From: Sphingobium boeckii
GTDB taxonomy: Bacteria; Pseudomonadota; Alphaproteobacteria; Sphingomonadales; Sphingomonadaceae
Length of the DNA stretch: 64,000 nucleotides
Reading direction: 5' to 3'
Assembly: GCF_014199215.1 (NCBI RefSeq)
Contig: NZ_JACIJC010000001.1
Location: 994,001 to 1,058,000 of the forward strand
Within the stretch, counting starts at the first letter, position 1, and the number at the start of each line of letters is the position of its first letter. The position numbers were made by a program, and so were the translations under genes. The notes under the pieces were generated by a model that had not been told where the DNA came from, made no database searches, and saw only the letters and a program-made list of their open reading frames with translations. Below, piece by piece: positions 1,137 to 28,762 of this stretch.

Positions 1137-1225
1137 CTGCTTAACGGCGGCAATTGCTGTTGCATGATGCTTGTAAAAGTACACTGGATGGGGCCTCATT
1201 GTCGGTACCCCGGGGATAAGTATTG

Positions 1226-2491: not shown

Positions 2492-2493
2492 AG

Positions 2494-5400
2494 ATGCGCT
2501 TCGTCGACCTCGCACTCGAGCGCTACGGCCACTTCGACAACTGCACGCTCTCCTTCCGCGCCGGCGAACCCGACCTCCACGTGATCTACGGCGCGAACGA
2601 GGCCGGCAAGACCACGTCGATGGCGGCCGTATCGGACCTGTTGTTCGGCTTCCCCGGCCGTTCGCCCTACAACTTCATCTATGACTATTCACTACTAAGG
2701 GTCGGAGCCGTACTTGAAGACGAGGGCCGGACGATGGCCTGCCGCCGCAAGAAGGCCGCCAGCGGAACGCTCCTCGGCCCTGACGACAAACCCATCGACG
2801 AGGGGCCACTGCTCGCCATGCTCCGAGGCCAGACGCGGGAGACATTCGGCCTGTCGTTCAGCCTAGATCAGGAGGGCTTGCGCGCCGGCGGGAAGGCGAT
2901 GGTCGAGGCGCGCAACGATCTCGGGAGGGCGCTGTTCGCCGCCGGATCGGGCCTGACCGGTGTTTCCGACGAGCTGGCGCGCCTCGAGGAAGAGGCCGAC
3001 GCCATCTGGGGGCCACGCGCGTCGAACAAGAGGTCGTTCACTGTCGCGCAACGAGAGCTCGAGACTAACGCGCGGGCCATCCGTGAGCGGTCGCTGAGGC
3101 CGAAGACCTGGCTCGATGCGAAGGCGGCGGTGGCGACGGCGCAGGGTGCGCTGGACGACGCGCGGGGACGGCGGGACGAGCTGCTTGCCGAGATCAGCCG
3201 AGCGGAGCGGATACGGCGGATCGCTCCTTCGGCACGTCTTCGGGCGGATCATCTGGCGGCGCTCGCGGAGTACAGCGCGACCGTCGACATCCCAGCGCAG
3301 CGCGAGGACATGGCCGAGGCCGCGATGGCCGACGTCGCTCTCGCAACGAGGGCGAAGGCCGCTGCCGCGAAGCTTGCCGATGAGGCGACCGAGCGCATGA
3401 AGGCGCTCGTGGCCGACGCGGAGATTCTCGCCCAGGCAGATCTCATCGACGAACTGGTGACGACTTCGGGCGCAGTCGTGAAGGCAGGCAGCGACATGGT
3501 CCGGCTGACGACTGAGCAGGCCACGCGCGCCGGCCGTATCGAGATCCTCCGGGAAGAGGCCGGCGCACTGGCAGCGGACCCACCGTCCCGGATCGCGAGT
3601 GCAAAGCTGCGCGAACTTGCGCTCGCGCACGTCGAGGACAAGTCGGCGCTCAGTCAGATAGCCGAGAGCGAGCAGGAGCTTGAGGAACGACGGCGGATTG
3701 CACCAAACACCTCGCTGACGGTCGACGACGGCTCGCCGGACGAGTTGAAGAGGGTGGTCGCCGCCGTCGATGCAGCACGCGCGCTCGGCGCCGACAGCGA
3801 CGCCCGATGCCTGACACTGCGGAGGATCGCCGACTCGACCGCCGCCTCGCTCTCCCAGGCGCTCGTCCGGCTTGCACCATGGAACGGCGACGCCTCGTCG
3901 CTCCTCGAACTCCCGAGGATCGGCCAGGTCGAGGTCGATGAAGTGCGCACGACGCTCTCCGATCTGACCACCGAGGTCGACCGCGAGCTGGCGACCGCGG
4001 CTCGCTCCAGGGAAGAGGCCGCAGCCCTCTCCCTCCAAATGGACCAACTAGCGTCAGGCAAGGCAGTATCGGCCGACGAAATCGAGAGCGCGCGGACTGA
4101 ACGCGACGGACGCTGGCGTCCGATACGCGATCATGTGCTCTCCGAAACTCGACTCGATGCCCCTACGGAAGTTGTCTCCGCATTCGAAATCGCCCTCGCT
4201 CAAGCCGACGAGCGCAGCGATCTCAGGTTCGCGGCAGCCGACGAGTCCAGCCGACTGACCGACATGGGCAACCGCGCCGCGAAGCTGCTGTTGGATGCTG
4301 ATCAGGCGGACATCCGCACCGCGACCTTCACCCGGCGCCGGGAGGCAGCGCGCACCGCGTGGGGTGAGAAGCTCATCGCCGCGGGCCATCTCGATATGGA
4401 GCCGACCCGCTTCGTTGGCTGGAGCGCCGAGAGAGCCGCCGCGGAAATGGCGCACGCTGCTTCCGTCGCTGCCGCCGAGGAGGCCGATGCAGCCATTGCC
4501 CGAAGGGTGACGGTTCTTGAGGGACTCGCCTCATGCTTGCCTGAAGGCGATGCTGCACGTGAGGGCGTCGAGATCGCTCCCGTCCTGACCTCCGCCGAGC
4601 GCTTGAGGACCGACCTCGAGATGCTCCAGCAGCAGCGGCGGCTCGACGAAGCCGCAGCGGCACGGATCGAGCAGGATGCCGAAGCGCTGGGGAGGCGGAG
4701 GAAGCGGCTTGAAGATGCCGCATTCACCCGTAGCGACCAGTGGCGCCAGCAGCTTGAGCAGACCGGGCTGAGCCTCGAGATCGAGAGCGCGATCGCCACT
4801 CTAGACGTGCTCGACGAGCTGCGCGTCGAGATTGCGGCCCAGTCGGACCTGAAGGGACGGCTGGACGGCATGGTCAGGGACTCTGGCGAGCACAACAGCA
4901 GGGTCGTCGCGGTGGCCGATGCGCTTGGCATCCCAGCAGCGAAGGAAACCGGTGATCGACTGGCCTTGATGCGCACCAGGCTCACAGCCGCGCGGTCCAC
5001 CGCCACCGTCCTCGACACCCTGCAGGCGACGGTCAGCAGCCGCGACGACGAGATAGCCGCGGAGGGCGCCAAGTTGACCGCGGCGCTGGATTCGCTGGCG
5101 GCTCTGATGAAGGAGACGGGAGCCGCGGACATCGACGCGCTGACCGGCGCGATCGAGCGCTCGCGGGCGGCACGGGCCCTTCGCGCTTCGGTCGCCGAGA
5201 CCGAAACTGCGATCAAGTCGGCCGGCGACGGCAAGGGTCTGGAGGAACTGCTCGATTCACTCGAGGGCGTCGACCCAGACGGTCTGGCGGCTAGGACGCA
5301 AGCCCTCTCGTCCGAGCTCGCCGACCTCAACGCGGGAGTAGACGCGGCTGCGGCGGCCCACGGGGACGCGCGAAGGGCCTTCGCGAGCCTCGAGAAGGAA

Positions 5401-5952
5401 GGGAACAGCGCAGTGGACGCGGCGACTGACGCGGATCATGCCCGCGCGGAACTGGCCGTTCTCTCCGAGCAGTACATCCTGAAGCGAGCCGAGGCGGTGA
5501 CGCTGCGCTGGGCCATCGAGCAATACCGCGAACGCCATCAGGATCCGATGCTGCTGCGTGCCTCTGAACTGTTCTCCACCCTCACGATCGGACGCTACGC
5601 AGCGCTGCGGATCGACAACGACGCTAGCACGCCGCGGCTGCTTGGGATGCGGGACGACGGCAGGACGGTGGTCGAAGTCGGCGCCATGAGCGAGGGCACG
5701 ACGGATCAGCTTTTCCTGGCGTTGCGCCTCGCCGCCGTCGAGCAGTCCGTTGCTTCCGGCATCCGCCTACCGTTCCTCGCCGATGACCTCTTCGTCAACT
5801 TCGACGACGAGCGATCGCAGGCCGGGTTTCGCGTTCTCGCGGAACTTGCCAGGTCCACCCAGGTCCTGTTCTTCACCCACCATCCCCACCTCGCGTCGAT
5901 CGCACGTTCGGTGGTCGGGGTCGACGTCCACTCGGAGTGCTCGCTGGCTTGA
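2494..5952 (+). CDS. YhaN/SbcC-like SMC-type AAA ATPase
   Basis: Large (1152 aa) SMC/Rad50-type ATPase, the expected partner of the preceding nuclease. The N-terminus has Walker A (YGANEAGKTT, about residues 31-40). The middle about 800 residues are Ala/Glu/Arg-rich and heptad-like, as in long antiparallel coiled coils. The C-terminus has a signature-like segment (GAMSEGTTDQLFLALRLA) and Walker B (LPFLADDLFVNFDDE), then an FFTHH switch. No CxxC zinc hook is obvious in the coil middle, which fits YhaN better than canonical SbcC/Rad50. It likely controls access of DNA ends to the nuclease. Start and stop are unambiguous. The length is in the usual YhaN/SbcC range. Confidence 0.88.
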   Translation: MRFVDLALERYGHFDNCTLSFRAGEPDLHVIYGANEAGKTTSMAAVSDLLFGFPGRSPYNFIYDYSLLRVGAVLEDEGRTMACRRKKAASGTLLGPDDKPIDEGPLLAMLRGQTRETFGLSFSLDQEGLRAGGKAMVEARNDLGRALFAAGSGLTGVSDELARLEEEADAIWGPRASNKRSFTVAQRELETNARAIRERSLRPKTWLDAKAAVATAQGALDDARGRRDELLAEISRAERIRRIAPSARLRADHLAALAEYSATVDIPAQREDMAEAAMADVALATRAKAAAAKLADEATERMKALVADAEILAQADLIDELVTTSGAVVKAGSDMVRLTTEQATRAGRIEILREEAGALAADPPSRIASAKLRELALAHVEDKSALSQIAESEQELEERRRIAPNTSLTVDDGSPDELKRVVAAVDAARALGADSDARCLTLRRIADSTAASLSQALVRLAPWNGDASSLLELPRIGQVEVDEVRTTLSDLTTEVDRELATAARSREEAAALSLQMDQLASGKAVSADEIESARTERDGRWRPIRDHVLSETRLDAPTEVVSAFEIALAQADERSDLRFAAADESSRLTDMGNRAAKLLLDADQADIRTATFTRRREAARTAWGEKLIAAGHLDMEPTRFVGWSAERAAAEMAHAASVAAAEEADAAIARRVTVLEGLASCLPEGDAAREGVEIAPVLTSAERLRTDLEMLQQQRRLDEAAAARIEQDAEALGRRRKRLEDAAFTRSDQWRQQLEQTGLSLEIESAIATLDVLDELRVEIAAQSDLKGRLDGMVRDSGEHNSRVVAVADALGIPAAKETGDRLALMRTRLTAARSTATVLDTLQATVSSRDDEIAAEGAKLTAALDSLAALMKETGAADIDALTGAIERSRAARALRASVAETETAIKSAGDGKGLEELLDSLEGVDPDGLAARTQALSSELADLNAGVDAAAAAHGDARRAFASLEKEGNSAVDAATDADHARAELAVLSEQYILKRAEAVTLRWAIEQYRERHQDPMLLRASELFSTLTIGRYAALRIDNDASTPRLLGMRDDGRTVVEVGAMSEGTTDQLFLALRLAAVEQSVASGIRLPFLADDLFVNFDDERSQAGFRVLAELARSTQVLFFTHHPHLASIARSVVGVDVHSECSLA

Positions 5953-6653: not shown

Positions 6654-6676
6654 GGAGCCGTTCCGGTTCTTTTTTC
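6654..6676 (+). terminator. Candidate intrinsic terminator
   Basis: GAGCCG and CGGTTC (6655-6669) form a 6-bp stem with one G-T pair and a 3-nt loop, followed at once by a run of T (6669-6676). It lies between the stop at 6616 and the start near 6733, so it would separate the left genes from the ubiquitin-like operon. Confidence 0.5.
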
Positions 6677-6732
6677 CGTGGCGATTATCCGAATATAGAA
6701 GCTATGCACGAATGCGGATCGGGGAGGATAAG

Positions 6733-7512
6733 TTGATTGTTCCGCTAACTAAGCGAAAGAAGGACGGTACGCTCTACCTCCGTCCCGACAACGTCGAACC
6801 GCTGTTGAAGTCCCTTTCCGATCTACCGCGCGATGTCCTGCTCGAACGGGCGCGCATCCGCGATCGCAAGCATCCGGACTACGTTCCCAGCGAGTGCCTG
6901 CTGCATTTCATCCGGGCCAGCCGTCGCGACAACTCCGATGCCTGGTTCGAACGGTTGTACAAGGTGCTCGTCGAACGGGTCCTGAGGGCGGTCCCGCGAG
7001 TGGAGGCTTCCGGGAACAGCGCGTCGCTTGCCAACGAGCGCATCCGCAACTCGGTGTTCGACCGCTTCGTTGAACTGCTCGCGAAAGATCGCAAGGAGCT
7101 GGACGACAAGCTCGACTTCTTCGAGGTGCGGTTCGACCTCGCCATCAAGCGCCTTCGCCTCGACGCGCAGGAGCGGGTGTGGCGCGAGGAGAACCGCAGC
7201 GATTCCATTGACGACGAATCCGGCGGCGCTGGCGACGACGCGGCCGAAGCCACCTCGGCCAGCCCGTTCGACGCGGATAATTTTTCCGATCCGCTTTTCC
7301 GGGAGCGCCTCTATGTGGCGATTGACGCCCTGTCACCGGAACAAAGCAGGACCATGCACCTGCTGCTTCTCGGGTGGCAGACCCATTCGAACGATCCGGC
7401 CGTCATGACGATCGCGAAGGCGCTGGGCTGCTCGGATCGGTCAGTTCGCAACTATCGGGACCGGGCGATGAAGACGCTCGGCGCCCTATTCAATCTTGGG
7501 GACGACCAATGA
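6733..7512 (+). CDS. Sigma-70 region-4-like HTH protein (first gene of operon)
   Basis: About 259 aa. The C-terminal 60 residues (ALSPEQSRTMHLLLLGWQTH, then AKALGCSDRSVRNYRDRAM) look like a sigma-70 region 4 helix-turn-helix. The rest has charged helices and an acidic Ser/Asp/Gly linker near residues 155-185; no clear region 2 is visible. The TTG at 6733 has a strong Shine-Dalgarno (GGGGAGG, 6721-6727) five bases upstream, while the in-frame ATG at 6712 has none, so I prefer TTG. The stop overlaps the next ATG (ATGA). It heads the operon with the HTH, peptidase-helicase and ubiquitin-like genes and may be its regulator; that role is inferred. Confidence 0.75.
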   Translation: MIVPLTKRKKDGTLYLRPDNVEPLLKSLSDLPRDVLLERARIRDRKHPDYVPSECLLHFIRASRRDNSDAWFERLYKVLVERVLRAVPRVEASGNSASLANERIRNSVFDRFVELLAKDRKELDDKLDFFEVRFDLAIKRLRLDAQERVWREENRSDSIDDESGGAGDDAAEATSASPFDADNFSDPLFRERLYVAIDALSPEQSRTMHLLLLGWQTHSNDPAVMTIAKALGCSDRSVRNYRDRAMKTLGALFNLGDDQ

Positions 7513-8096
7513 CCTCCAATACTCCGCCCCTCACGCTCGAGGCTGTGCTTGACCACTTCCAGATGGAGGAGATCCACGATGGTGACGTGCTCGCACGCTA
7601 CGTCCAGGCGCATCCACAGTTCGCCCTCCAACTCATCGACCTCTCCAGGCTGATCGCGACGTCCGGCGTGGAGGACGAGAGCCCGCTGTCCGCCACCGAG
7701 CAGTCGCGCATCGATACGGCATGGATCGCGCACAAGGCTGCTGGCCCGGAAGTGCCCCCGGCCGGCGATCCGCTCGCCGCGCTGGTCGGAGAACCCAGCA
7801 AGGCTCTTGCGCGCAAACTCGGCGTGCCGCGCCAAGTGATCACCTGCTTTCGCGAACACAAAGTGAAGGCATCGAGCGTGCCTGGCCACGTCCTCCAAGA
7901 CTTCGCCGACGCGCTGAATGTTCCCGCGGCGCACGTGATCGCGGCCATGCAGCAGCCTCCTTCAATGGCGATGGGCAGAAGTTACAAGTCGGACGGCAAA
8001 CCCGGCTCGGGCGAACAGGATACCTTCGAGCAGGTACTCATAGATGCCGGCGTATCCGAGACGGATCGCGCGCGGCTGCTCGCCGGCGTCGCCTGA
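7509..8096 (+). CDS. XRE-like HTH protein, probable partner of the ImmA/IrrE peptidase
   Basis: 195 aa, with ATG overlapping the previous stop (ATGA). Residues about 95-140 (KALARKLGVPRQVITCFREH, then VPGHVLQDFADALNVPAAHVIAAM) resemble a divergent XRE-type helix-turn-helix. The N-terminal part (LEAVLDHFQMEEIHDGDVLARYVQAHP) is helical and unassigned. The next gene begins with an ImmA/IrrE metallopeptidase domain 3 bp downstream. In known ImmR-ImmA and DdrO-IrrE pairs the peptidase cleaves an XRE repressor encoded beside it, so this protein is a good candidate substrate and repressor. The HTH call rests on pattern only. Confidence 0.72.
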   Translation: MTSNTPPLTLEAVLDHFQMEEIHDGDVLARYVQAHPQFALQLIDLSRLIATSGVEDESPLSATEQSRIDTAWIAHKAAGPEVPPAGDPLAALVGEPSKALARKLGVPRQVITCFREHKVKASSVPGHVLQDFADALNVPAAHVIAAMQQPPSMAMGRSYKSDGKPGSGEQDTFEQVLIDAGVSETDRARLLAGVA

Positions 8097-8099
8097 CGC

Positions 8100-11000
8100 A
8101 TGGACGCAATCGAGCTAGGTCGCCAACGCGCTGCGGAACTGCACTCCGACGCCATCGCGCGCGAGCTCGATCCGACCGATCCATACGCGTTCGCCGTCGC
8201 CGTAGCAAAGGCTCGCGGCCTAGACGTCGAGGCGACGAATCCCGGCGGCGCCAGCCTGGACAATGGCCGCGCGACGCTGGTGCCCGCGGACGACCTGATC
8301 ATCCACGAGAACATCGGCTCCCGTTTCGAACAGGCCTTCCTGGTCGCCCACGAGATCGGCCACCACGTGCTGGGCGACGCCACTGCGTCTCCCACCGTGC
8401 TCCGCGCCGACATCGCACGGCCATCCGAGCCCTCACCGACAGGCATTGACCGGGTCGTCGACTATGGCCGGCGCCAGCGGCGCGAGGTGCAGATGGATCT
8501 CTTCGCGCGCGAGCTCCTCCTTCCGCGCGAACTGATGTGCCGCCTTCATCTCGAGGACGGTCTGACCGCCTCCCAGATCGCCGCGCGCATGAACGCCCCC
8601 TTCGACGCCGTCGCGCAGCAGCTGCTCGACGCGCTGATGCTCCCGGTAATCGAACCAGGTGAAAAGGTGCGCCAGGAGCATCCGCTGAACGAGGCCCAGG
8701 TGAAGGGGGCCGGACATCGCGGGCGCGCCTACCTGCTCGAGGCTGGCCCTGGCACCGGGAAGACCCAGACGCTCACCGCGCGAGTCGTCCAGCTGCTCGA
8801 CGAGGGCGTCGATCCGCGCAGGCTGCTCGTCCTCACCTACTCGAACAAGGCCGCCGGCGAGATGGCCGAGCGCATCGCGGCGAAGAAGCCGGACCAGACC
8901 GCGGCAATGTGGATTGGCACCTTTCATGCCTTCGGGCTCGACCTCATCCGGCGCCTGAGTTCCGAATTCTCTCTCCCCGACGATCCTCGAATGATGGACC
9001 GGGTCGAGGCGGTCGAACTGCTCGAGGCGGAGTTCCCCAAGCTCGCGCTCGACCACTATCAGGACCTCTACGATCCGACCCGCCTCATCGGCGACATCCT
9101 CGCCGCCATATCGCGGGCTAAGGATGAGGTTGTCGGCGCCGATGAATACGCACGCCACGCGGAGGAGATGCGGATTGCGGCGCAAGGCGCGGAGCCGCGC
9201 AACACCGACGCCCTGAAGGCCGCCGAGATCGCCCGCGTCTATACCCTCTACGAGAAGCTCAAGCGCGACCGGCGGGCGATCGACTTCGGCGATCTGGTCT
9301 CGCTCCCCGTCGAACTGCTCGAGGCGCGACCCGAGATCGCCACCCAGCTGGGAAAGCTGTATGATCATGTGCTCGTCGACGAGTACCAAGACGTCAACCG
9401 GGCGAGCGTGCGTCTACTCAAAGCGCTACGTCCGACCGGCGAGAACCTCTGGGTGGTCGGAGACGCACGGCAGTCGATCTATCGGTTCCGAGGCGCTTCC
9501 CCGATCAGCACGTCCAAGTTCACGTCGGAGGACTTTCCGGATGCAGCGTCGGGCAGGCTGGAGATCAACTACCGTTCAGCCGACGAGATCGTCACCGCCT
9601 ATTCCGCTTTCGCCGCCGAGATGACGGCGAGTTCGACGAGTTCCCAGCTGAAGGCCCATCGCGGCGCCAGCGGCAACCCGATCGAACTCAGGCTGCGCGC
9701 GGCAAAGGATGAACAGTCCATAGCGATCGCCGACGGCATCAGCGAGATGCTCGCCGCGGGCGTCGCCTATCGGGACCAGGCCGTGCTGTGCACAGGAAAC
9801 GAGCGCCTTGGCGAGATCGCGCGGAACCTCGAGCGGATGGACATCCCCGTCCTCTTCCTGGGCAGCCTGTTCGAGCGCGGTGAGGTGAAGGATCTGCTCT
9901 CGCTCCTTTCACTGCTCACCGACCGTCGTGCGATGGGACTCGTCCGCACCGGCTGCATGCCCGATTTCGCCATGTCGCTCGGCGACGTCGGCGCCGTGCT
10001 GGACTCGTTGCGCAACGAGGAGCGCGAACCGCTGGACTGGCTCGTCGAGCGTCACGGCCTGCCCATTTCAGCCGAAGGACATGCCGCGCTCGACAGGCTC
10101 GCCTTTGTGCTCGACGGCTTCGATGCCGACGCGCCGCCCTGGCGGGCGCTGGCCGTCATCCTTCTCGACCGTACCCGCATCGCGGCGCGTGTCGCGGAGG
10201 CGGGTTCAGTCGCCGAGCGCAGCCAGGGCATCGCGCTATGGCAGCTGATGAACTTTCTCCGGGTCCAGCCGCGCGAGCAGGGCCGTGCCGTGCCGCGTCT
10301 GCTCGACCGCATCCGGCGGCTGGTGGCGATCGGCGACGATCGCGATCTCCGCCAGCTACCGTTGGCGACGCAGGGGCTGGACGCCGTTCGCCTGATGACC
10401 ATCCACGGTGCCAAAGGCCTCGAGTTCCGATGCGTCCATCTCCCCGGCCTCAACCAGGACACGCTTCCGAGCTACCCGAAGGCGCCGGCCTGCCTGCCGC
10501 CGGAAGGCATCATCGCCGGCGTGACCGGCGACGTGAAGGCGACGTTGTGCGCCGGCGACGCGGAGGAGCGTGAATGCTTGTTCTACGTCGCCACCTCGCG
10601 CGCGCGGGACCGCCTCTTCCTCTATGCCGCGACGGAGAAAACGGACGGTAAGAAACGTCCTCTGTCCGACTTCCTTCCTCGGCTGGGGCCGGCCGTAATC
10701 CGACGCACGCCGGTTCTCATCCACGCCCTCCCGCCCGCACCCGAGGCCGAGCCGATTCTGCTTTCAATCGGCGGGCCAATCCGCCTGCGGGACTCGCAGG
10801 TCGCTATGCTGGATAAGGACAAGTGCAAGCGGCGCTTCTTCTACACCCACGTGCTCGGCATCGGTGGCCGTCGGACCGAGACCGACTACATGCGGATGCA
10901 CGAGGCGGCGCGGTCGGTCGTGCGCGCCATTGTCCGCGACGGGCTCGACGTCTCGAACGACGCCCATCTTCGCGCAGCCGTCGAACAGGCCTGCGACGAT

Positions 11001-11504
11001 CACGGCCTCGACACGCCGGGCAGCTTCGCGGAACTGCGCGCGGCGGCGATCGCGCTCGTGACCAGGTTCCGGCGATCGCGCGACGTGCATCAAGCCGAGA
11101 TGCCAGCCGCGCTTTCGCTGCAGATCGGAAACGATCAGATCGCGTTCAGCGCCGATGACGTCCTCATCAACGCGCAGGGTGCCCGGATCTACCGTCGCGT
11201 TCGCACTGGCGTGTTTCGCAAGTCGGACACCGAGAACCTCGGCGTGGCGACCGCGCTGCTCGCCCTAGCGGACAACGCCCCCGGTGCGGTCGCGCAGGTC
11301 GTCCATCTGACCAGCGACAAAGTCACACCGCTCAGTCTCTCCGCGCTGGTTCTCGGCCGGCGCCGCGATGCTTTGGGTGCGGCGCTGACGGGCATCCGCG
11401 CCGGCAGCTTCCCGACCGCCCCCTCGCAACGGGTTTGCCCCGGCTGCCCCGCCTTTTTCATCTGCGGTCCGGTGCCTGCTGGAACGCTGCAGAAAGATTT
11501 CTAA
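8100..11504 (+). CDS. ImmA/IrrE metallopeptidase fused to UvrD-family helicase
   Basis: 1134 aa fusion. Residues about 60-150 are an ImmA/IrrE zinc peptidase with HEIGH at 84-88 and a downstream FARELLLPRE segment typical of the family. A superfamily 1A helicase follows: Walker A GPGTGKT (216-222), motif II DEYQD (about 426), VVGDARQSIYRFRGA, and the C-terminal motif MTIHGAKGLEF near residue 765, then YVATSRARDRLF. The last 25 residues hold a Cys cluster (CPGCPAFFIC), reminiscent of the Fe-S cluster of AddB/Cas4-type nucleases, so a divergent C-terminal nuclease is possible. Length suits one intact polypeptide. It sits between the HTH gene and the ubiquitin-like genes, suggesting a damage- or phage-sensing helicase tied to modification. 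Confidence 0.88.
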   Translation: MDAIELGRQRAAELHSDAIARELDPTDPYAFAVAVAKARGLDVEATNPGGASLDNGRATLVPADDLIIHENIGSRFEQAFLVAHEIGHHVLGDATASPTVLRADIARPSEPSPTGIDRVVDYGRRQRREVQMDLFARELLLPRELMCRLHLEDGLTASQIAARMNAPFDAVAQQLLDALMLPVIEPGEKVRQEHPLNEAQVKGAGHRGRAYLLEAGPGTGKTQTLTARVVQLLDEGVDPRRLLVLTYSNKAAGEMAERIAAKKPDQTAAMWIGTFHAFGLDLIRRLSSEFSLPDDPRMMDRVEAVELLEAEFPKLALDHYQDLYDPTRLIGDILAAISRAKDEVVGADEYARHAEEMRIAAQGAEPRNTDALKAAEIARVYTLYEKLKRDRRAIDFGDLVSLPVELLEARPEIATQLGKLYDHVLVDEYQDVNRASVRLLKALRPTGENLWVVGDARQSIYRFRGASPISTSKFTSEDFPDAASGRLEINYRSADEIVTAYSAFAAEMTASSTSSQLKAHRGASGNPIELRLRAAKDEQSIAIADGISEMLAAGVAYRDQAVLCTGNERLGEIARNLERMDIPVLFLGSLFERGEVKDLLSLLSLLTDRRAMGLVRTGCMPDFAMSLGDVGAVLDSLRNEEREPLDWLVERHGLPISAEGHAALDRLAFVLDGFDADAPPWRALAVILLDRTRIAARVAEAGSVAERSQGIALWQLMNFLRVQPREQGRAVPRLLDRIRRLVAIGDDRDLRQLPLATQGLDAVRLMTIHGAKGLEFRCVHLPGLNQDTLPSYPKAPACLPPEGIIAGVTGDVKATLCAGDAEERECLFYVATSRARDRLFLYAATEKTDGKKRPLSDFLPRLGPAVIRRTPVLIHALPPAPEAEPILLSIGGPIRLRDSQVAMLDKDKCKRRFFYTHVLGIGGRRTETDYMRMHEAARSVVRAIVRDGLDVSNDAHLRAAVEQACDDHGLDTPGSFAELRAAAIALVTRFRRSRDVHQAEMPAALSLQIGNDQIAFSADDVLINAQGARIYRRVRTGVFRKSDTENLGVATALLALADNAPGAVAQVVHLTSDKVTPLSLSALVLGRRRDALGAALTGIRAGSFPTAPSQRVCPGCPAFFICGPVPAGTLQKDF

Positions 11505-11587
11505 CCGTCTTTCCGGTCGGTCGCCACTGTCCCGATTGTCCTTCCATAGCCGGGCTGACCCGGCAGAGCACGAAGGACAAACGCAAA

Positions 11588-12340
11588 ATGAACTCCCCCG
11601 AACTCCCCGAATACGACGACGTCGGCGAAGCGGTCCGCGAGGGTCGCGCCCTGCTGCCGGCAAATGCATACCGCATCCAGTTCGCCCTCGAGAACCTCGA
11701 CTTCCGTCCGCTCAGCGTCGCCGACCCGATCCCGCTGGGCCGCCAGGTCCTTGAGGCGGCGGGGCTCGAGCCCGACCGCGGCTATAGTCTGTTCGCGATC
11801 CTCGACACGGGCGACTTCGAGGACATCCGTCTCAACGAGCCGTTCGACCTGCGCGGGGTGGCCGCGGAACGTTTCGTCGCCTTCCTCACGGACCGCGAAT
11901 TCAAGTTCGAGGTCAACTCGCACGAGGAGCGTTGGGGCAAGCCCGCGATCAGCGGCCAGATCCTCAAGCAGCTCGCCAAGCCCGGTCCGGACGAGGCGGT
12001 CTTCCTCGAAGTGCGCGGCGGAACCGACGTCTTGATCGAGCCGACCATGCTGGTCGATCTGAACGCACCGGGCATCGAGCGCTTCTACAACGCGCCGCGT
12101 CCCCCGGTTGAGATCGAGGTCATCGTCAACACCCGCCCGCGCCTGGTCCGCGGCGCGACGGTGACCTTCGAGCAGATCGTCGAGCTGGCATTCCCCGGTC
12201 TGCACGATGCCAACGTCGTCTTCTCGATGACTTATCGCAAGGCGGCCTCGACGCCGCACGCCGGTGAGCTGGGCGCCCACGGTTCAGTCACCATCAAGCA
12301 GGGGACGGTCTTCAATGTCACGCGCACTGTTCAGTCGTAA
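11588..12340 (+). CDS. Multiubiquitin-domain protein (three ubiquitin-like folds)
   Basis: 250 aa from ATG 11588, 83 bp after the helicase stop; the frame is open further upstream, but residues before this Met do not look coding. Three similar segments of about 70-80 residues start near YRIQFALEN (27), EFKFEVNSH (100) and IEVIVNTRP (177). Each has the beta-strand, helix, beta-strand pattern of the Multi_ubiq family. The protein ends NVTRTVQS without a C-terminal diglycine, which appears usual for this family. It would be the modifier acted on by the ThiF/E1-like product. Its 3' end overlaps that gene by 26 bp, so the genes are co-expressed. Confidence 0.85.
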   Translation: MNSPELPEYDDVGEAVREGRALLPANAYRIQFALENLDFRPLSVADPIPLGRQVLEAAGLEPDRGYSLFAILDTGDFEDIRLNEPFDLRGVAAERFVAFLTDREFKFEVNSHEERWGKPAISGQILKQLAKPGPDEAVFLEVRGGTDVLIEPTMLVDLNAPGIERFYNAPRPPVEIEVIVNTRPRLVRGATVTFEQIVELAFPGLHDANVVFSMTYRKAASTPHAGELGAHGSVTIKQGTVFNVTRTVQS

Positions 12341-13499
12341 CGCCGACCTCGCAAAGCTTCGCGAGGAAGGCTATTTCGTCCAGGTCGTCGGAGGGTTCCT
12401 CGTCATGCGCGAGGTTCCCTACGTCGATGCGAACCGCAAGGTCCGCAAAGGCACCCTGATCTCGAGTCTCGCGCTGGCCGGCGACCAGACCCGGCCGCCG
12501 GACACCCACGTCCTGCATTTCGATGGCGACTACCCGTGCTTCGCGGACGGAATCCGAATCGCGGCGATCGCAAACCAGACGACGCACTTCGATCTGGGAC
12601 ACGGGCTGACAGCCGAGCATGCCTTTTCGAGCAAGCCCGACGGCGGCTATCGCGACTATCACCACAAGATGAGCACCTACGCGTCGATCATCGCGGGCCC
12701 GGCCGCGGTGCTCGACAGCACCTCGACACCCCGGCCCTACCGCGCGCTCGATGAGGAGGAGGACGCTGACAGCGTGTTCAACTACGTCGAGACAGCGTCG
12801 GACCGCGTCGGCATCGGTGCGCTCACGGCGAAGCTCGCGGGACACCGTGTCGCGATCATCGGCCTCGGCGGGTCCGGCAGCTACATTCTCGACATGCTCG
12901 CGAAGACTCCTGTCGCCGAGATCCGGATGTTCGACGCCGACGAGTTCCTTCAGCATAACGCATTCCGAGCGCCAGGCGCGCCGAGCCTCGAAGAACTGCG
13001 CGAGGCCCCCCTTAAAGTGAACCACTTCAAGGCGATCTACGAGCGCATGCACCGCGGCATCACCGCGGTACCCCAGGCGATCGCGGCGGATAACCTCGAT
13101 CTGCTAGACGGCATCGACTTCGCGTTCCTGAGCCTCGACGCGGGTGAGGCCAAAGCGCCACTCGTCGAACGGCTCCATGCACGCGGTGTCGGGTTCATCG
13201 ACATCGGCATGGGCCTGGAACTAGGCGATCATGGGCTGAGCGGAATCCTGCGGGTGACGACCAGCACGCCGGCAACCCGGGAGCAAGTCAGCTCGCACGA
13301 GCGCATTCCCCTGGCCGGCGGTGGGGATGGCGACGTGTACGCGTCCAACATCCAAGTCGCAGACCTCAATGCGCTAAACGCGGTGCTCGCGGTGATCAAA
13401 TGGAAGAAGCTGTGCGGGTTTTACTGTGATCTCGAGAACGAACATCACTCGACCTATACGCTCGACGGAAACATGCTCCTCAACGAGGACCAGTCGTGA
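12315..13499 (+). CDS. ThiF/E1-like adenylyltransferase with N-terminal DUF6791-type domain
   Basis: 394 aa, with ATG inside the end of the ubiquitin-like gene. The N-terminal 165 residues (GYFVQVVGGFLVMREVPYVD, a DYPC segment, then GGYRDYHHKMSTYASIIAGP) match what I recall of DUF6791, found in front of ThiF domains. The C-terminal part is a Rossmann E1-like fold with the nucleotide motif IIGLGGSGSY (about 181-190), then RMFDADEFLQHNAFRAPG, where Asp and Arg contact ATP in E1 enzymes. It should adenylate the C-terminus of the ubiquitin-like protein. Several Cys residues lie near the C-terminus (KKLCGFYCDLENEH). No separate E2 or JAB gene is visible. Confidence 0.87.
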   Translation: MSRALFSRNADLAKLREEGYFVQVVGGFLVMREVPYVDANRKVRKGTLISSLALAGDQTRPPDTHVLHFDGDYPCFADGIRIAAIANQTTHFDLGHGLTAEHAFSSKPDGGYRDYHHKMSTYASIIAGPAAVLDSTSTPRPYRALDEEEDADSVFNYVETASDRVGIGALTAKLAGHRVAIIGLGGSGSYILDMLAKTPVAEIRMFDADEFLQHNAFRAPGAPSLEELREAPLKVNHFKAIYERMHRGITAVPQAIAADNLDLLDGIDFAFLSLDAGEAKAPLVERLHARGVGFIDIGMGLELGDHGLSGILRVTTSTPATREQVSSHERIPLAGGGDGDVYASNIQVADLNALNAVLAVIKWKKLCGFYCDLENEHHSTYTLDGNMLLNEDQS

Positions 13500-13966
13500 T
13501 GCAGCACACGGTCCTCGAGCATCGCTTCGTCGAGCACTTTCCCGAAACCCTCGAGCCGGGGGTGCTCTATGTGTCCCTCGAATTCGGCAGCGCCGCCCAC
13601 AGCTGTTGCTGCGGCTGCGGTGAGGAGGTCGTGACGCCGCTCACCCCAACGGATTGGGACATCACATACGACGGCGAAACGATCACGCTGCATCCTTCGG
13701 TCGGCAGTTGGACACTGCCCTGCAGGTCGCACTACGTGATCCGTCGAGGGCGCGTGATCGAGGCACCGCCGTGGACAGACGCCGAGATCGCGGCAGAACG
13801 ACGGCGTGACGGCCGTGCCAAGGCGAGTCACTTCGGGCAGAATGAATTTAACCCCGCGCCTTCCTCATTGCCTGAGGTAACCGTCGGAGCCGCCCGTGCG
13901 CCCGAACCGCCAGTCGGACACTGGTGGCAGCGTCTTCTGGCATGGTGGTGCAGCGTGCGGAACTGA
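13499..13966 (+). CDS. DUF6527 family protein (ubiquitin-like pathway component)
   Basis: 155 aa. Its ATG overlaps the E1-like stop (TGATG), which implies translational coupling. The family features are present: a Cys cluster HSCCCGCGEE (Cys36, 37, 38 and 40), a PSVGSW segment and the CRSHY motif (75-79). These look like metal-binding plus possible catalytic Ser/His residues. DUF6527 proteins recur next to multiubiquitin and ThiF genes; from memory a processing-protease role has been proposed under the name BubE, but I cannot verify that here. The C-terminal 50 residues are Pro/Trp-rich and less conserved-looking. It ends the operon, 33 bp before the convergent dGTPase gene. Confidence 0.83.
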   Translation: MQHTVLEHRFVEHFPETLEPGVLYVSLEFGSAAHSCCCGCGEEVVTPLTPTDWDITYDGETITLHPSVGSWTLPCRSHYVIRRGRVIEAPPWTDAEIAAERRRDGRAKASHFGQNEFNPAPSSLPEVTVGAARAPEPPVGHWWQRLLAWWCSVRN

Positions 13967-13999: not shown

Positions 14000-15367
14000 T
14001 CAGCGGCCAATCATTTCAGCTACTTTGACGGCGTAGCGATCAGTCATCCCGGAAACGAAGTCCGTCATGGCGTGCAATGCGTTGTAGGCGTTTGTTGCCG
14101 TCGTGACAGGGAACTTGAGCGCACGCGCCAACTGCACATGGTAGGAGCTAAGTTTGCTCCTATCCCACCCGTGGCTGCGGAGGTCATCAAGCAACGGAAC
14201 GATGCCGTCTAATGCCCGGTAGATAACGTTACGGCCTGACACCTCAAGTTCGGTCTTGCGCGGCGCACTGAATATCCGCTGTTTGGCAACCTTCTTGATG
14301 GCTCCAAATTCCTGCGAAAGCCGCGATGCCTCAACAAGCGACACCGCGAAGGAGCCGCTCATGATCTCAGCATAATTGTCCTTGAAAGCGTCGGCACACG
14401 CATCAATCGCTCCCTTTATGGCGAGGGCACGATGACGCGATACGGTGCCGGATTCCTCGTCATCGACATAGATCTTGTTGGTTTTGGACATAACCGGCGT
14501 GAGCAATTCGCATACAAGATCGAAACTGATATCACCGGCGAGGTAGGCATCCTCCAAGTCCATGACATTGTAGCAAATGTCGTCCGCGGCCTCCATTAGG
14601 AATGCTAGCGGGTGACGGCGCCACCACGACCCTACGGGCGTGCCGTCTTCACGAATGACGTCGGTTTTCAGCAGACCAAGTTCTTCCGCTACGCTCGCAA
14701 ACGTCTCAATGTCGTTGTCGAAAAAACCGAATTTCTTCAGACCGATATAACGGTTCCCGTTGATCTCTCCCTCCGTGCCTACCTGTTGCCGAACGCTTGC
14801 TGCCACGGGATATTTCGCGAAGGCGCCGAGCGAACCAACCGCAAGCCGCAGTCCGCCCTCGTTCTTATACATTTCGGTTCGGGTCAGGATGCGAAAGCCC
14901 TGAGCATTACCTTCGAATGCGATGAACTCTTCGCGCTGGTGTGTATCAATTTCAGCCAATACGCCGTGTGACTTGGAGAAGCGATCGGCAAACCAAGATC
15001 CGATCGCACTCTCGCCCGAATGACCGAAAGGCGGATTGCCAATATCGTGCGCCATGCACGCAGCTTGTACGAGGCCTGCAATGATCTCAACGTCCGACGC
15101 TTTCACCTCTTTCTCGTCGGCTAGCCAGGAACCAACAGAAACGCCGAGATCATGACCGACTGTCGCAACCTCTAAGCTATGAATAAGCCGGTGATGGATA
15201 TGATCGTTGTCGTAGAGTGGATGGACCTGCGTCTTATTCGCTAGGCGACGAAAGGGCTGTGAGAATAGAATACGATCGATATCCTGCCGGTAAGCCGGGC
15301 GATATGGATGTTGAACATATTTCGGGTCGTTAAGCCGATCGAGCTTGAGAAGCTGGTGCCACTCCAT
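14000..15367 (-). CDS. dgt: dGTPase (HD-domain deoxynucleotide triphosphohydrolase)
   Basis: Predicted to hydrolyse dGTP to deoxyguanosine and triphosphate; 455 aa from the ATG at 15367. That start has GGGGAAA about seven bases upstream, and translation upstream of it lacks family features. HD-superfamily residues are visible: a conserved FRRLANKTQVHP opening, HRLIHSLEVATVG, the AHDIGNPPFGHSGE signature (about residue 100) and EAADDICY. The length suits dGTPase-like proteins. It is transcribed towards the ubiquitin-like operon. dGTPases are known both from nucleotide housekeeping and as anti-phage proteins that deplete dGTP; its island setting makes the second use plausible, but that is inference. 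Confidence 0.9.
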   Translation of the reverse strand: MEWHQLLKLDRLNDPKYVQHPYRPAYRQDIDRILFSQPFRRLANKTQVHPLYDNDHIHHRLIHSLEVATVGHDLGVSVGSWLADEKEVKASDVEIIAGLVQAACMAHDIGNPPFGHSGESAIGSWFADRFSKSHGVLAEIDTHQREEFIAFEGNAQGFRILTRTEMYKNEGGLRLAVGSLGAFAKYPVAASVRQQVGTEGEINGNRYIGLKKFGFFDNDIETFASVAEELGLLKTDVIREDGTPVGSWWRRHPLAFLMEAADDICYNVMDLEDAYLAGDISFDLVCELLTPVMSKTNKIYVDDEESGTVSRHRALAIKGAIDACADAFKDNYAEIMSGSFAVSLVEASRLSQEFGAIKKVAKQRIFSAPRKTELEVSGRNVIYRALDGIVPLLDDLRSHGWDRSKLSSYHVQLARALKFPVTTATNAYNALHAMTDFVSGMTDRYAVKVAEMIGR

Positions 15368-15839
15368 TATGTTGTTTCCCCACATTGAGATGGCTCGATC
15401 AAAGTGCCTCAAGACACAGACCCGTAGTGATGGAAGCCTCGCATATAAGCAATGATGTCTTACGGAGGTCCAACCCTCAATTTGAATTAATGTCGGCTTT
15501 CTGGATCAGCCGCATCGAGCCTGAATGACCGCATTGCGGCGCAAAGCACAAACACGGCGCAGCGCCGCCGATATTCGCTATTCGCATAGTGACGCTCCAG
15601 CGGACCGATCATAAAGTTCCAGCCAAGGGAGCTTCGGCGCGTTTCATCCGGTTCATGAACGTACGACTACTTCCTCCGAATTCCGCTCCAAACCGGACTG
15701 TCGCGAATGTCCCATTTGTAGCCGTAAAAGGACTGACGGATTGCCCAGAAGTCGATGTCACCAGGCGAGCGCTGGCTAAATCGTCTGAGTGAGTACGGCA
15801 TCTTCTGACACTGCGGCTTCTAACCAAAATTATGGGACA
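15368..15839. other. Intergenic region upstream of the dGTPase gene, no gene seen
   Basis: A 472-bp stretch between the dGTPase start and the exonuclease stop. A 67-codon frame at 15589-15792 has no family resemblance and no good ribosome binding site. The region must hold the dGTPase promoter near 15400-15480, which is AT-richer, but no consensus is convincing. Confidence 0.5.
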
Positions 15840-16742
15840 TTACGCAGACTCGATGCGGGTGAGGCGCGCCCTGAGCGCGTCTTCCGTTACGATTTCGACG
15901 GAAGCGCCGCCGTTCAGGAGCTCCTTGGCACGCCGATATTCATGGCTTGCGTGAACGAAACGCCCAAAAGGTTGTGTATTGGCAATCACGAGCATCGTCG
16001 TGGTGATACCCACCGAGGCAACGATCCGAGCGCCTGCGCCAGCAATCCAATGGGCAACGGTGCCATCGCGCGGCGCGCCGAGGATGGCGACCCGCTCTCC
16101 TTTCAGCGGACCCGAAGATGCGGGTTTAGGAGCAATTCCTCCGCGCTTTTTCACCGGCGTCAGCCAACCGGCGAGATCTATTCCGGTGTGATCGATGGCC
16201 CTGACCACCACCATCCCCGCTGCGCGAGCGTCGCTCAAAGCGTCGTGGTGCTTGTGCTTCACGCCCAGGAAGCGCGTCAAAACGTTCAGCCGATGGCTTG
16301 GTAATTCGGGCCATGCGCGCTTGGCGACGCGAACGCTGTCGAGCCATGTCGTCTCGATCGGAGCGCAATCGGTGAGACGACAGGCCGCCGCGAGGGCACC
16401 CTTGTCGAAATAGGAATGCGCGACAGTGATCCGCCCAGAGAGATGCGCATCTACAATCGGGTGGACTTGCAAGAAGGACGGTTGTCCGACCACGTGATTG
16501 GCGCAAATTCCGTGGATCCGCGTGTTGAATGACGAAAACTCGTCCCGCGGATCAACCAGCGTTTCATAAGCGAAGGTCTCGACCCCGTCTCGGAAACCGA
16601 CGATACCGACCTGGCAGATACTGCTTACCCGAGAGCAGGCCGTCTCCACATCGATGACTACGAAATCGAGCGGCGCCGGCTGATTTTCCGGGACAGAAAT
16701 ATTATCAACAATGGACGATGCGCTGCTCACTGAATTGGACAT
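15840..16742 (-). CDS. DnaQ-like 3'-5' exonuclease with C-terminal BRCT-like domain
   Basis: 300 aa. Residues about 30-190 are a DEDD exonuclease of the DNA polymerase III epsilon type: motif I VVIDVETAC, motif II with HSYFDKGAL, and motif III KHKHHDALSDARAAG. The C-terminal 100 residues (PLKGERVAILGAPRDGTVAHWIAGAG) have the shape of a BRCT domain, as in DnaQ-BRCT and ligase proteins. The start lies 4 bp after the dinB stop, so the two are one operon, and the LexA box upstream of dinB probably controls both. It may trim or proofread ends during error-prone synthesis. Confidence 0.82.
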   Translation of the reverse strand: MSNSVSSASSIVDNISVPENQPAPLDFVVIDVETACSRVSSICQVGIVGFRDGVETFAYETLVDPRDEFSSFNTRIHGICANHVVGQPSFLQVHPIVDAHLSGRITVAHSYFDKGALAAACRLTDCAPIETTWLDSVRVAKRAWPELPSHRLNVLTRFLGVKHKHHDALSDARAAGMVVVRAIDHTGIDLAGWLTPVKKRGGIAPKPASSGPLKGERVAILGAPRDGTVAHWIAGAGARIVASVGITTTMLVIANTQPFGRFVHASHEYRRAKELLNGGASVEIVTEDALRARLTRIESA

Positions 16743-16746
16743 AATG

Positions 16747-17850
16747 TCAGGCGGCCTCTCTCGCAATCTGCGCGCCTTCAAACAGCGGAAGCGCGCCATC
16801 CTCGACAACAGCTCGATCGAAGTTTGAGACGGTCACTCCCACCAGCCGAATGCCTTTTTCGGTCGGAAGCACCGATCGAATCAAGGCCATGCTCGCGTCG
16901 CGCAGGTCGGCCTGAGTGGTGACAGGCGTTCCATGCGTGCGGCTCCGCGAAATGTTATGAAAGTCGGCATATTTCACCTTTACGGTGACTGTCCGACCAT
17001 AAGCGTCGGCTTTCTGGCACCAGGCCCAGACGTCGTCAGCCTGACCGAGCACGCCAGCGACGATTTCGTCATCTCCCATCAGATCGCGGTCGAACGTTGT
17101 CTCTGAGCCAGAGGATTTGCGTTCCCGATTGGGATTGACCGGCCGATCATCGATGCCTCGCGCGATGTCGTGATACCAGTCGGCCGAACTGCCGAAATGC
17201 TCCTGCAGGAAGGCCATCGGCTTGGCGCGCAGGTCGGCGCCCGTCTCGATCCCGAGCCTTGCCATTTTCGCGGCCGTCACCGGACCCACACCGTGAAACC
17301 GGGATACGGGCAACGTCTCGACCCAATCGGCACCCATGCCCGGCGTGACGGCGAACTGTCCATTCGGCTTACGCTGGTCGGAGGCGAGTTTCGCCAGAAA
17401 CTTGTTATAGGAGATGCCGGCAGAGGCGGTAAGTCCGGTGACTTCGAATATCCGTTTCCGGATCGCCTTGGCCGTCAGCCAAGCCGTCGGGAGGCCCTGA
17501 CGGTTGTTGGTCACATCGAGATAGGCCTCATCCAGCGAGAGCGGTTGGATCAGATCCGTGAACTCTTCAAAAATCGCGTGGATCTGCCGAGACACCGTCT
17601 TGTAGACATCGAACCGCGGCGGCACGAATATGAGCTGGGGACAGCGCCGCATCGCAGTGACAGACGGGAGTGCCGAGCGTACACCATGCACACGGGCTTC
17701 GTAGCTGGCAGCAGCGACCACACCCCGCGCGGCTGCATAGCCCACGGCAACGGGTCGACCTCGAAGGCCGGGATCGTCACGCTGCTCCACAGACGCGAAA
17801 AAGGCGTCCATGTCGACGTGGATAATCTTGCGGTGCTCGGATTCCGCCAT
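16747..17850 (-). CDS. dinB: DNA polymerase IV (Y-family, DinB)
   Basis: Translesion DNA polymerase, 367 aa, close to the family norm of about 350-400. It begins MAESEHRKIIHVDMDAFFAS with metal ligands in HVDMDAFFASVE, then the steric-gate region, and the SLDEAYLDVT motif with the second carboxylates near residue 108. A helix-hairpin-helix part (LPVSRFHGVGPVTAAKMARLG) and the little-finger domain follow. The ATG at 17850 is chosen because homology starts there; the upstream part of the open frame overlaps a LexA box. It is followed by the exonuclease gene. Extra DinB copies are common on plasmids and integrative elements. Confidence 0.92.
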   Translation of the reverse strand: MAESEHRKIIHVDMDAFFASVEQRDDPGLRGRPVAVGYAAARGVVAAASYEARVHGVRSALPSVTAMRRCPQLIFVPPRFDVYKTVSRQIHAIFEEFTDLIQPLSLDEAYLDVTNNRQGLPTAWLTAKAIRKRIFEVTGLTASAGISYNKFLAKLASDQRKPNGQFAVTPGMGADWVETLPVSRFHGVGPVTAAKMARLGIETGADLRAKPMAFLQEHFGSSADWYHDIARGIDDRPVNPNRERKSSGSETTFDRDLMGDDEIVAGVLGQADDVWAWCQKADAYGRTVTVKVKYADFHNISRSRTHGTPVTTQADLRDASMALIRSVLPTEKGIRLVGVTVSNFDRAVVEDGALPLFEGAQIAREAA

Positions 17851-17871
17851 GGTCTCGCCATAACCGATCTC

Positions 17872-17886
17872 GAACAAAAAGAGAAC
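17872..17886 (-). promoter_or_regulatory. LexA (SOS) box upstream of dinB
   Basis: GAAC-N7-GAAC on the plus strand, read as GTTCTCTTTTTGTTC on the minus strand. This is the exact alphaproteobacterial LexA consensus GTTCN7GTTC, 21 bp before the dinB start. It predicts DNA-damage induction of dinB and the exonuclease gene. Confidence 0.75.
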
Positions 17887-17953
17887 GAATAGTTTTGGTA
17901 ACTGGGGCTTAGCACAGGGCGAACATCGGCACGCCACCGACCAACGCTGCTTA

Positions 17954-21216: not shown

Positions 21217-21227
21217 AGGGCGCGGAC

Positions 21228-21629
21228 ATGAAACCCCGCCATCATCTCTATCTCGACGTCGCGCTGACGACCGAGCTCGAGGCACTCGTGCGCAGCCGGC
21301 CCAAGCTTACCAAATCGGCTGTCGTGGCCGATGCGCTGCGCAGCTATCTCAAATATGGCGCGCGGCACGAAGTGGACGAGCTGCTCCGCAAGCGCCTCGA
21401 CCGCATGACCGCCGAGACCGCTGGCGTGCGGCGAGACCTGCATGCCTTGTCGGAGGCCTTGGCCTTGTTCATCCGGCACGAGCTGACCGTTCAGGCACCG
21501 ATTGCCGAGGGCGACGAGGCGGCGCGTGCCATGGGTCGCGCCCGCTTCAACCAGTTTGTTCTTCAGGTGGGTCGCAATCTCGCCAATGACCGCCTTAGCC
21601 TGGGCGGCGGCGAAGGGGAGGGGGCATGA
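21228..21629 (+). CDS. CopG/ribbon-helix-helix-like protein of the trb cluster
   Basis: 133 aa. The N-terminus (LYLDVALTTELEALVRSRPK, then SAVVADALRSYL) has a beta strand followed by two helices, as in CopG-type ribbon-helix-helix DNA binders. Later residues form a long helix (RLDRMTAETAGVRRDLHALSEALALFI). A gene of this type usually lies between traG and trbB in this class of element, so it may regulate the operon or bind near oriT. Its stop overlaps the trbB start (ATGA). Confidence 0.78.
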   Translation: MKPRHHLYLDVALTTELEALVRSRPKLTKSAVVADALRSYLKYGARHEVDELLRKRLDRMTAETAGVRRDLHALSEALALFIRHELTVQAPIAEGDEAARAMGRARFNQFVLQVGRNLANDRLSLGGGEGEGA

Positions 21630-26493: not shown

Positions 26494-26608
26494 GCCCGCC
26501 GGACGGGCTTGAGCGCACGCCATGGCGCTCGGCCCGGTCGCGGGGTTCCGTGCTCCCCTCCGGAACCCCGCGACATTCTCCCTCCTCCTTTCAGAAAGCG
26601 GAAGCCCC

Positions 26609-27949: not shown

Positions 27950-27953
27950 TGTG

Positions 27954-28748: not shown

Positions 28749-28762
28749 CAGGAGAATTAGCC

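Follow-up and report, generated by a model that had tools for sequence, protein, structure and literature searches.

In a 64,000-nucleotide stretch of Sphingobium boeckii DNA (contig NZ_JACIJC010000001.1, positions 994,001 to 1,058,000; hereafter the window), six genes join three putative regulatory genes to a set of genes for ubiquitin-like (Ubl) protein conjugation, and our judgement leans, if only a little, towards genes 1 to 3 being a dedicated mobile control module whose sigma-like factor transcribes the Ubl genes after a peptidase-helicase has acted on a helix-turn-helix (HTH) protein. The open reading frame (ORF) calls place all six genes, tightly packed on the plus strand, from 6712 to 13966 of the window. 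In order, they encode a protein resembling sigma factors of the extracytoplasmic function (ECF) type (gene 1, 6712..7512, 266 amino acids), an HTH protein (gene 2, 7509..8096, 195 amino acids), a fusion of an ImmA/IrrE peptidase, a UvrD-type helicase and a four-cysteine PD-(D/E)XK-like domain (gene 3, 8100..11504, 1134 amino acids), the Ubl protein (gene 4, 11588..12340, 250 amino acids), an E1-like adenylyltransferase (gene 5, 12315..13499, 394 amino acids, with its ATG at 12315) and a DUF6527 protein (gene 6, 13496..13966, 156 amino acids, with a GTG start). From gene 1 to gene 6 the junctions are a 4-nt overlap, a 3-nt gap, an 83-nt gap, a 26-nt overlap and a 4-nt overlap. The original prediction had described six co-directional genes that touch except for an 83-bp gap before the multiubiquitin gene, and every ORF was found in its place; its family labels were also upheld overall, apart from gene 2, for which the XRE match is weak, and gene 3, for which an additional C-terminal domain had been missed.

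In the mechanism that we propose, the sigma-like protein would recognise a promoter-like element, TT[AT]CCGGTC-N14-CGATT, read by us as a -35 sequence TACCGG, a 16-nt spacer and a -10 sequence CGATT of the ECF kind, and would transcribe the Ubl, E1 and DUF6527 genes, plus the control genes from a copy in or upstream of its own gene. The HTH protein, the gene for which overlaps the sigma-like gene, would restrain the sigma-like protein as a repressor or anti-sigma-like partner. The peptidase-helicase would sense DNA damage or invading DNA via its helicase and four-cysteine domain, its ImmA/IrrE peptidase would then cut the HTH protein, and the Ubl genes would be on only in DNA-stressed or phage-infected cells, with a hairpin at the Ubl ribosome-binding site keeping leakage low. 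The E1 would adenylate the Ubl, the Ubl would be attached to targets, and DUF6527 may process or remove it. Should the switch indeed be a sigma factor that a DNA-sensing peptidase-helicase sets free, expression of the sigma-like protein by itself would be expected to activate the pathway and reveal its targets; what triggers bacterial Ubl conjugation, and whether it serves in phage defence, is the question that such a dedicated on-switch addresses.

Recurrence of the control genes beside ubiquitin-like operons

The coupling of HTH and metallopeptidase-helicase genes with the Ubl set, as put forward in the original prediction, proved to be real and recurrent. The exact six-gene order on one strand was found in 22 loci, window included, from sphingomonads, rhizobia, Acinetobacter and Leptolyngbya (the window, L004-L008, L010-L012, L060, L063, L068, L079, L100, L109, L134, L136, L147 and L149-L152, in our locus numbering). 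Eight of the ten loci returned by the first Ubl search (L004-L008, L010-L012) matched the window in all six genes, in their order and, very nearly, in their spacing; L009, which is cut by a contig end and holds only the end of the trio (i.e., the sigma-like, HTH and ImmA/IrrE-UvrD genes), was placed outside the main set of 39 loci, and L013 (Bacteroidales) has the Ubl part only, with no trio. Searches that started from the control genes gave the same association. An HTH-profile search of 396 (order), 289 (class) and 398 (phylum) genomes, in overlapping draws, returned 18 genomes and in all 18 the trio stood beside a Ubl-type operon; for three of these (L139-L141), which matched the HTH profile over its second half only, the Ubl call was made from sub-threshold Pfam matches to ubiquitin, JAB and ThiF together with mutual similarity. 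All six plasmid loci found later, using the sigma-like protein as bait, likewise lie beside a Ubl-type operon, one of them (L160, Cupriavidus) without a peptidase-helicase gene. The sigma-like gene precedes the peptidase-helicase gene on the same strand in 39/39 main-set loci, a set in which the L146 peptidase-helicase is split over two ORFs and L093 and L097 run into contig ends, all three being kept in the counts; among the later loci, the sigma-like gene of L162 aligns in two pieces and the helicase gene of L157 is annotated short. Robbsia L061, with a different sigma-like protein, lies outside the 39.

The cargo beside the trio is of at least three types: Multi_ubiq with DUF6791-ThiF and DUF6527, Multi_ubiq fused to Prok-E2_E with JAB-ThiF, and a cryptic set comprising a Ubl-like protein of ~165 amino acids, DUF7665 or a relative, a JAB/JAMM-like protein and a divergent E1-like protein. 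Cryptic sets lie at 2812-5640 of L139, 2285-5193 of L140, 2986-5805 of L141, 11507-14441 of L062 and 12962-15779 of L159; their proteins, where annotated, are mostly called hypothetical, and that DUF7665 is the E2-like part is our guess. Bradyrhizobium L062, which came from the helicase search, was at one stage taken for a trio without Ubl genes, a reading dropped when comparison of its cargo with that of L139-L141 revealed a divergent set of Ubl-like, DUF7665, JAB-like and E1-like proteins. The Ubl set of Robbsia L061 is on the strand opposite to the trio, and on a Rhizobium beringeri plasmid (L153) a single trio is flanked by a Ubl set on either side.

Among plasmid records searched with tblastn, the Ubl was found in 154 and the peptidase-helicase, at a coverage of at least 80%, in 85. 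A plasmid collection this rich in cassettes would suit an addiction module, in which the HTH and ImmA genes, as has been put forward for Synechocystis, are a toxin-antitoxin pair that keeps the Ubl cassette stable on plasmids, and 70% of Multi_ubiq proteins are reported to be adjacent to potential toxin-antitoxin loci with a COG2856/DUF955 component (PMC4963859). However, relatives of ImmA/IrrE are known as repressor-cleaving peptidases, and neither the common promoter-like element described below nor the strict association with Ubl genes would be expected of a generic pair, and we regard this explanation as highly improbable.

The promoter-like element and the leader RNA

The element was found by aligning the region upstream of gene 1 in sphingomonads with the 83-bp gap, both of which contain the same bipartite motif. 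In the window it occurs three times, all on the plus strand: before the Ubl genes (11510..11537, TTTCCGGTC-N14-CGATT), within the sigma-like gene (7296..7323) and upstream of gene 1 (6661..6687), where the spacer is 1 nt shorter than in the other two copies. A strict 28-nt pattern, TT[AT]CCG-N17-[ACG]GAT[TC], was drawn from the first 39 loci and is found before the cargo, with its exact spacer, in 34 of them; it is missing in L097, L137, L138, L139 and L146, of which L137 has a spacer 1 nt shorter and L146 differs in the first letter. When the loci were reduced to cluster representatives (60% identity), 13/17 had the cargo element compared to 0.003 expected by shuffling, and it was present in five of the six later loci compared to 0.0014 expected, the sixth (L161) having only a partial likeness in its gap. 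The element also precedes the non-Multi_ubiq cargo of L062 and the cargo of L160, and could serve as a sequence tag for cargo missed by annotation, e.g., the cryptic Ubl-like sets.

Within trio loci the element is largely confined to the trio operon. A slightly relaxed pattern had 70 matches in 703 kb of such loci, 64 of them in the trio operon on its strand, and one of the six outside it precedes the second Ubl set of R. beringeri. On that plasmid each Ubl set has an element on its own strand (the second-set copy at 6925, opposite to the trio); CCGATC is common to all three copies, and the second-set copy starts with TTA whereas the other two start with TTT. With an element preceding a second set that is encoded opposite to the trio, L153 suggests that one controller serves two cargo sets. 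The genome of the window (4.03 Mb in 14 contigs) was scanned with TTCCGGTY-N10-16-CGATT, a narrow pattern that by design misses the copy within the sigma-like gene, and gave four matches, with a spacer of 13 or 14 only at the two intergenic copies described here.

The copy within the sigma-like gene was found in 31/39 loci. Of 16 cluster representatives, 12 use ATT for the isoleucine there, against 5.0 expected from the same genes (tail 1.3e-4), and where both strict copies are present the third base, A or T, agrees between them in 29/29 loci (19 A, 10 T), which indicates that the two sites vary together, many of the loci being related. The copy upstream of gene 1 was aligned in nine sphingomonad sequences, with GGATT in place of CGATT in L005; as a general feature this upstream copy was dropped.

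The element is asymmetric, has a fixed spacer and is directed towards the cargo, which suggests that it is read by a sigma factor acting on the cargo. The principal rival is a derepression switch like that of CapH+CapP, a DNA-damage-triggered pair in which the peptidase CapP, activated by single-stranded DNA (ssDNA), cleaves CapH (PMC13373217). Here, the HTH protein would be a plain repressor bound to the element and cleaved by the peptidase-helicase on DNA damage, with the sigma-like protein as an accessory activator. There is precedent for this in the DNA-damage-responsive CapW or CapH+CapP genes beside 219/544 Bub (bacterial ubiquitination-like) operons (PMC13373217), and a stand-alone ImmA-like ORF is present in nine of the 51 Multi_ubiq loci fetched, an approximate count from a regular expression matched anywhere in the fetched stretch. 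However, an operator would not readily account for an asymmetric element of fixed spacer that points to the cargo even when the cargo is on the other strand, or for its absence where the sigma-like gene has been replaced and the HTH gene kept. The latter is a single case, Robbsia L061, which has a different sigma-like gene and no element though both the HTH and peptidase-helicase genes are kept; in another single case, Cupriavidus, the element is kept along with the sigma-like and HTH genes and without the peptidase-helicase. We give derepression of this kind a modest chance.

Immediately downstream of the cargo element, the leader of the window can form a stem-loop (11538..11578, plus strand; dG -21.8, z -3.5), the 3' arm of which contains the Shine-Dalgarno-like sequence GAAGGA. 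Leaders between the element and the Ubl start were folded as single sequences against plain (not dinucleotide) shuffles, L010 and L012 without their last bases, and 24/34 had a z of -2 or lower, those above being L063, L068, L072, L150, L151, L062, L153, L153b, L141 and L137. In many folded leaders an AAGGA- or GGAG-like Shine-Dalgarno sequence, as read from the folds, lies in the 3' arm. The consensus fold is weak (-0.83 kcal/mol), with two-sided changes at four of seven pairs and an outer stem of which the sequence varies by lineage, and we regard the stem-loop as a secondary finding which may act as a lock on translation of the Ubl.

The control proteins and their known relatives

Gene 1 matches sigma-factor families weakly to middlingly over regions 2 and 4. 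Residues 76-256 matched TIGR02937 (E 7.4e-6; 25.7 bits, under the cut-off of 42.9), and matches to Sigma70_r4_2 (E 0.0016) and, with a slightly better score, to HTH_29 (E 0.00068) were also under cut-off. A profile of the sigma-like proteins compared with the PDB gave FliA (E 0.0026), GerE (0.038) and RpoE (0.079). The model of the protein is middling (pLDDT 66.7) and the ECF sigma factors SigW, CnrH and sigma-E are among its structural rows at Z 5-6, while orthologs are named in the databases as sigma-70 family in some cases and as response regulator or hypothetical in others. Taken together, the family matches, the model and the ortholog names make a weak to middling case for a divergent sigma-70/ECF-like protein. 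The HTH protein of gene 2 matched HTH_26 under cut-off (E 0.086); its gene adjoins that of the peptidase-helicase, and a C-terminal YKSD-x-KP-like motif is conserved, with K160 and P165 invariant in 14 rows. We infer that it is the substrate of the peptidase or an anti-sigma-like partner.

Gene 3 combines Peptidase_M78 (1.9e-10), UvrD-helicase (1.5e-58) and, at residues 908-1122, PDDEXK_1 (3.6e-6). The peptidase HExxH, residues 84-88, is kept in 39/39 alignable sequences, and the helicase Walker A and VDEYQD motifs in 39-40/40; conservation of the helicase motif SRARDRL falls to 31-33/40 at three positions and that of TIHGAKG to 21/40 at one. PD-(D/E)XK nucleases carry a D/E-x-K catalytic motif. 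In the C-terminal domain of gene 3 four cysteines are kept in 40/40, and the aligned nuclease site has D or E in 0/40 and K in 2/40, i.e., the domain is PD-(D/E)XK-like with altered catalytic residues. As the domain partnering the helicase lacks the nuclease D/E in all 40, a role as DNA sensor seems likelier for the peptidase-helicase than one as effector. An effector role, with the helicase and its four-cysteine domain attacking phage DNA and Ubl tags regulating the helicase, would fit the intact ATP-binding motifs and the similarity that PADLOC reports to DRT and GajB helicases, which lies over the UvrD part. It is improbable, however, given the nuclease site, at which no active nuclease is seen, the lack of evidence for any Ubl acceptor, and L160, which keeps its Ubl-type genes without the helicase protein. 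The original prediction had also suggested that the helicase is perhaps itself modified, and nothing observed pointed to modification.

A published relative of the gene 3 peptidase is PprI (IrrE), an ssDNA-binding HExxH peptidase that cleaves the HTH repressor DdrO (PMC10904395), as we propose for the HTH protein here; PprI differs in being a stand-alone peptidase with HTH and GAF-like parts and no helicase fusion, and the PprI-DdrO pair governs the DNA-damage response of Deinococcus. On the model of CapP and PprI, both of which cut an HTH protein when activated by ssDNA, the peptidase-helicase probably responds to DNA damage or foreign DNA by cleaving the HTH protein. That the peptidase releases repression, as originally predicted, is borne out in part: the published CapH+CapP switch and the conserved HExxH are in its favour, whereas the element suggests that, instead of mere relief of repression, a sigma factor acts on the cargo, a scheme in which a repressor may still have a place.

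Several points weigh against the proposed module. The trio was present in only 10/52 Multi_ubiq loci (51 fetched plus the window, from class and order searches), which shows that the Ubl genes do not need it and that it is one of several controllers, though the six genes did not prove to co-occur seldom, the outcome named in the original prediction as telling against it, with the trio beside a Ubl-type operon in 18/18 HTH-profile genomes. The set includes many related loci, and some of it came from a Ubl search. The sigma-like protein is under the curated cut-off of every family matched, its model has no Foldseek match at E <= 0.001, its top structural row is FliS, and a Z of about 6 may reflect a common helical arrangement. 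Because the strict pattern was itself derived from the first 39 loci, the later count alone is independent of how it was chosen, and two of those later loci, L157 and L158, are similar to L064 in the original set. A strict cargo element is lacking in four of the 17 representatives (L097, L137, L138 and L139), the four distant L138-like and L139-L141 loci being the weak end for the element. The copy within the sigma-like gene falls on a conserved protein segment, such that part of its conservation is coding, and 4/16 representatives do not use ATT there. A strict copy upstream of the sigma-like gene occurs in 3/45 loci, the window not among them, so autoregulation from that site is not general. 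The element itself might instead serve the HTH protein as an operator and, in the cryptic sets, most matches to ubiquitin, JAB and ThiF fall short of the cut-off.

HTH and ImmA-type genes beside multiubiquitin genes are already known (PMC4963859, 2016): a cassette on the Synechocystis plasmid pSYSX (L155) likewise has Multi_ubiq, ThiF and DUF6527 genes beside HTH and ImmA/IrrE genes. It differs in having a separate E2 gene and divergent, stand-alone HTH and ImmA genes, and no sigma-like gene or helicase fusion is annotated in its 12.6 kb. Bub operons with CapH+CapP, CapW or CapK+CapS (PMC13373217) are similar in that a Ubl-type operon lies next to a gene for a DNA-binding protein, putative in the present case, and, for CapH+CapP, next to one for a peptidase, which in that pair is activated by ssDNA. 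Unlike the Bub controllers covered in the sections of that paper considered, the operon described here has a sigma-like gene first, a peptidase joined in one protein with a UvrD helicase and a four-cysteine domain, and a common promoter-like element before the cargo. The type 6e operons of Iyer et al. 2006 (PMC1779556) share an E1 with an uncharacterised N-terminal domain that is not JAB and a protein of one to three beta-grasp repeats of 70-75 amino acids, and they include a small metal-binding protein to which DUF6527 may correspond; the operon section of that paper mentions no regulatory genes, and its main text has 0 occurrences of 'UvrD' or 'helicase'. The combination is not described in the portions consulted of PMC8195603 and PMC11354881, and no description of the sigma-like gene, the helicase fusion or the common element was found in the literature searched, which did not take in the likeliest places, Ye et al. 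2026 and Gong et al. 2025. It is to us very nearly an even call whether the trio is a previously undescribed class of Ubl-operon controller, with an ECF-like sigma factor, an HTH/anti-sigma-like substrate, a peptidase-helicase DNA sensor, its own promoter code and a leader-RNA lock, common to at least three kinds of Ubl operon including the cryptic set, and in which one controller may drive two sets, as on the R. beringeri plasmid. Protection against phages has yet to be demonstrated for Bub operons (PMC13373217), perhaps because they are silent under the conditions used, and for the present operon too a role in defence is hypothetical.

Ubiquitin-like proteins and genomic surroundings

The Ubl of gene 4 has three Multi_ubiq (PF14452) beta-grasp stretches (E 2.5e-51); its closest named matches are mostly from sphingomonads, and its PDB relatives are the solved multi-ubiquitin proteins 9cd2, 8u38, 9d5b and 9d59. 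Rather than Gly-Gly, it ends in FNVTRTVQS, which is exact in 24/53 rows, with FNVTxTxxS fitting 28/53. Gene 5 carries DUF6791 followed by ThiF, i.e., it is E1-like with an uncharacterised N-terminal domain. No E1 cysteine is conserved in 80% of 51 rows, the best being C75 in DUF6791, and our first statement that the family has no conserved cysteine was narrowed on recount, as C75 is Cys in 37/51; a thiol at this position is possible. The six-gene operon has no separate E2 gene, and the idea that DUF6791 has an E2-like fold was set aside, the E1 model being too poor (pLDDT 40.5) to allow any claim. Gene 6 matched DUF6527 (E 4.6e-25) and has a CxCGC...PS...CxxH arrangement in which C37, C39, C41, P67, S68, C76 and H79 are invariant in 55/55 rows. 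The spacing C37-x3-C41-x34-C76-x2-H79 is similar to the type 6e pattern C-x3-C-x35-38-H-x2-C, with Cys before His in the last pair. Bub pathways are said to use oxyester rather than thioester intermediates and a serine protease, and a link from these to the present Ubl genes is a lead only.

Several genes near the operon are related to DNA metabolism. Directly upstream on the same strand (1223-5952) lie genes for an SbcD-like metallophosphatase and an SbcC/YhaN-like ATPase, and comparable nuclease/SMC-like pairs lie close to the trio in three other loci, R. beringeri L153, Bradyrhizobium L062 and Roseovarius L161. On the minus strand, convergent with the operon, is a dGTP triphosphohydrolase-like gene (14000-15412; TIGR01353 above cut-off, PADLOC dGTPase 1.7e-63), possibly a second defence gene, and adjoining it at 15840-17937, also on the minus strand, are genes for an exonuclease (RNase_T) and a DinB-like Y-family polymerase, another link to DNA damage. 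In four rhizobial plasmid loci (L147, L148, L149 and L152) a pair encoding DUF6088 and an AbiEii-type nucleotidyltransferase lies directly upstream of the trio, at about 1-2080. No tRNA was found in the window by ARAGORN. Further downstream in the window, genes for a TraG/VirD4 coupling protein and TrbE-like and TrbI-like proteins (19171-31056) form part of a conjugation system and, given these, the operon probably lies within a conjugative element or next to one.

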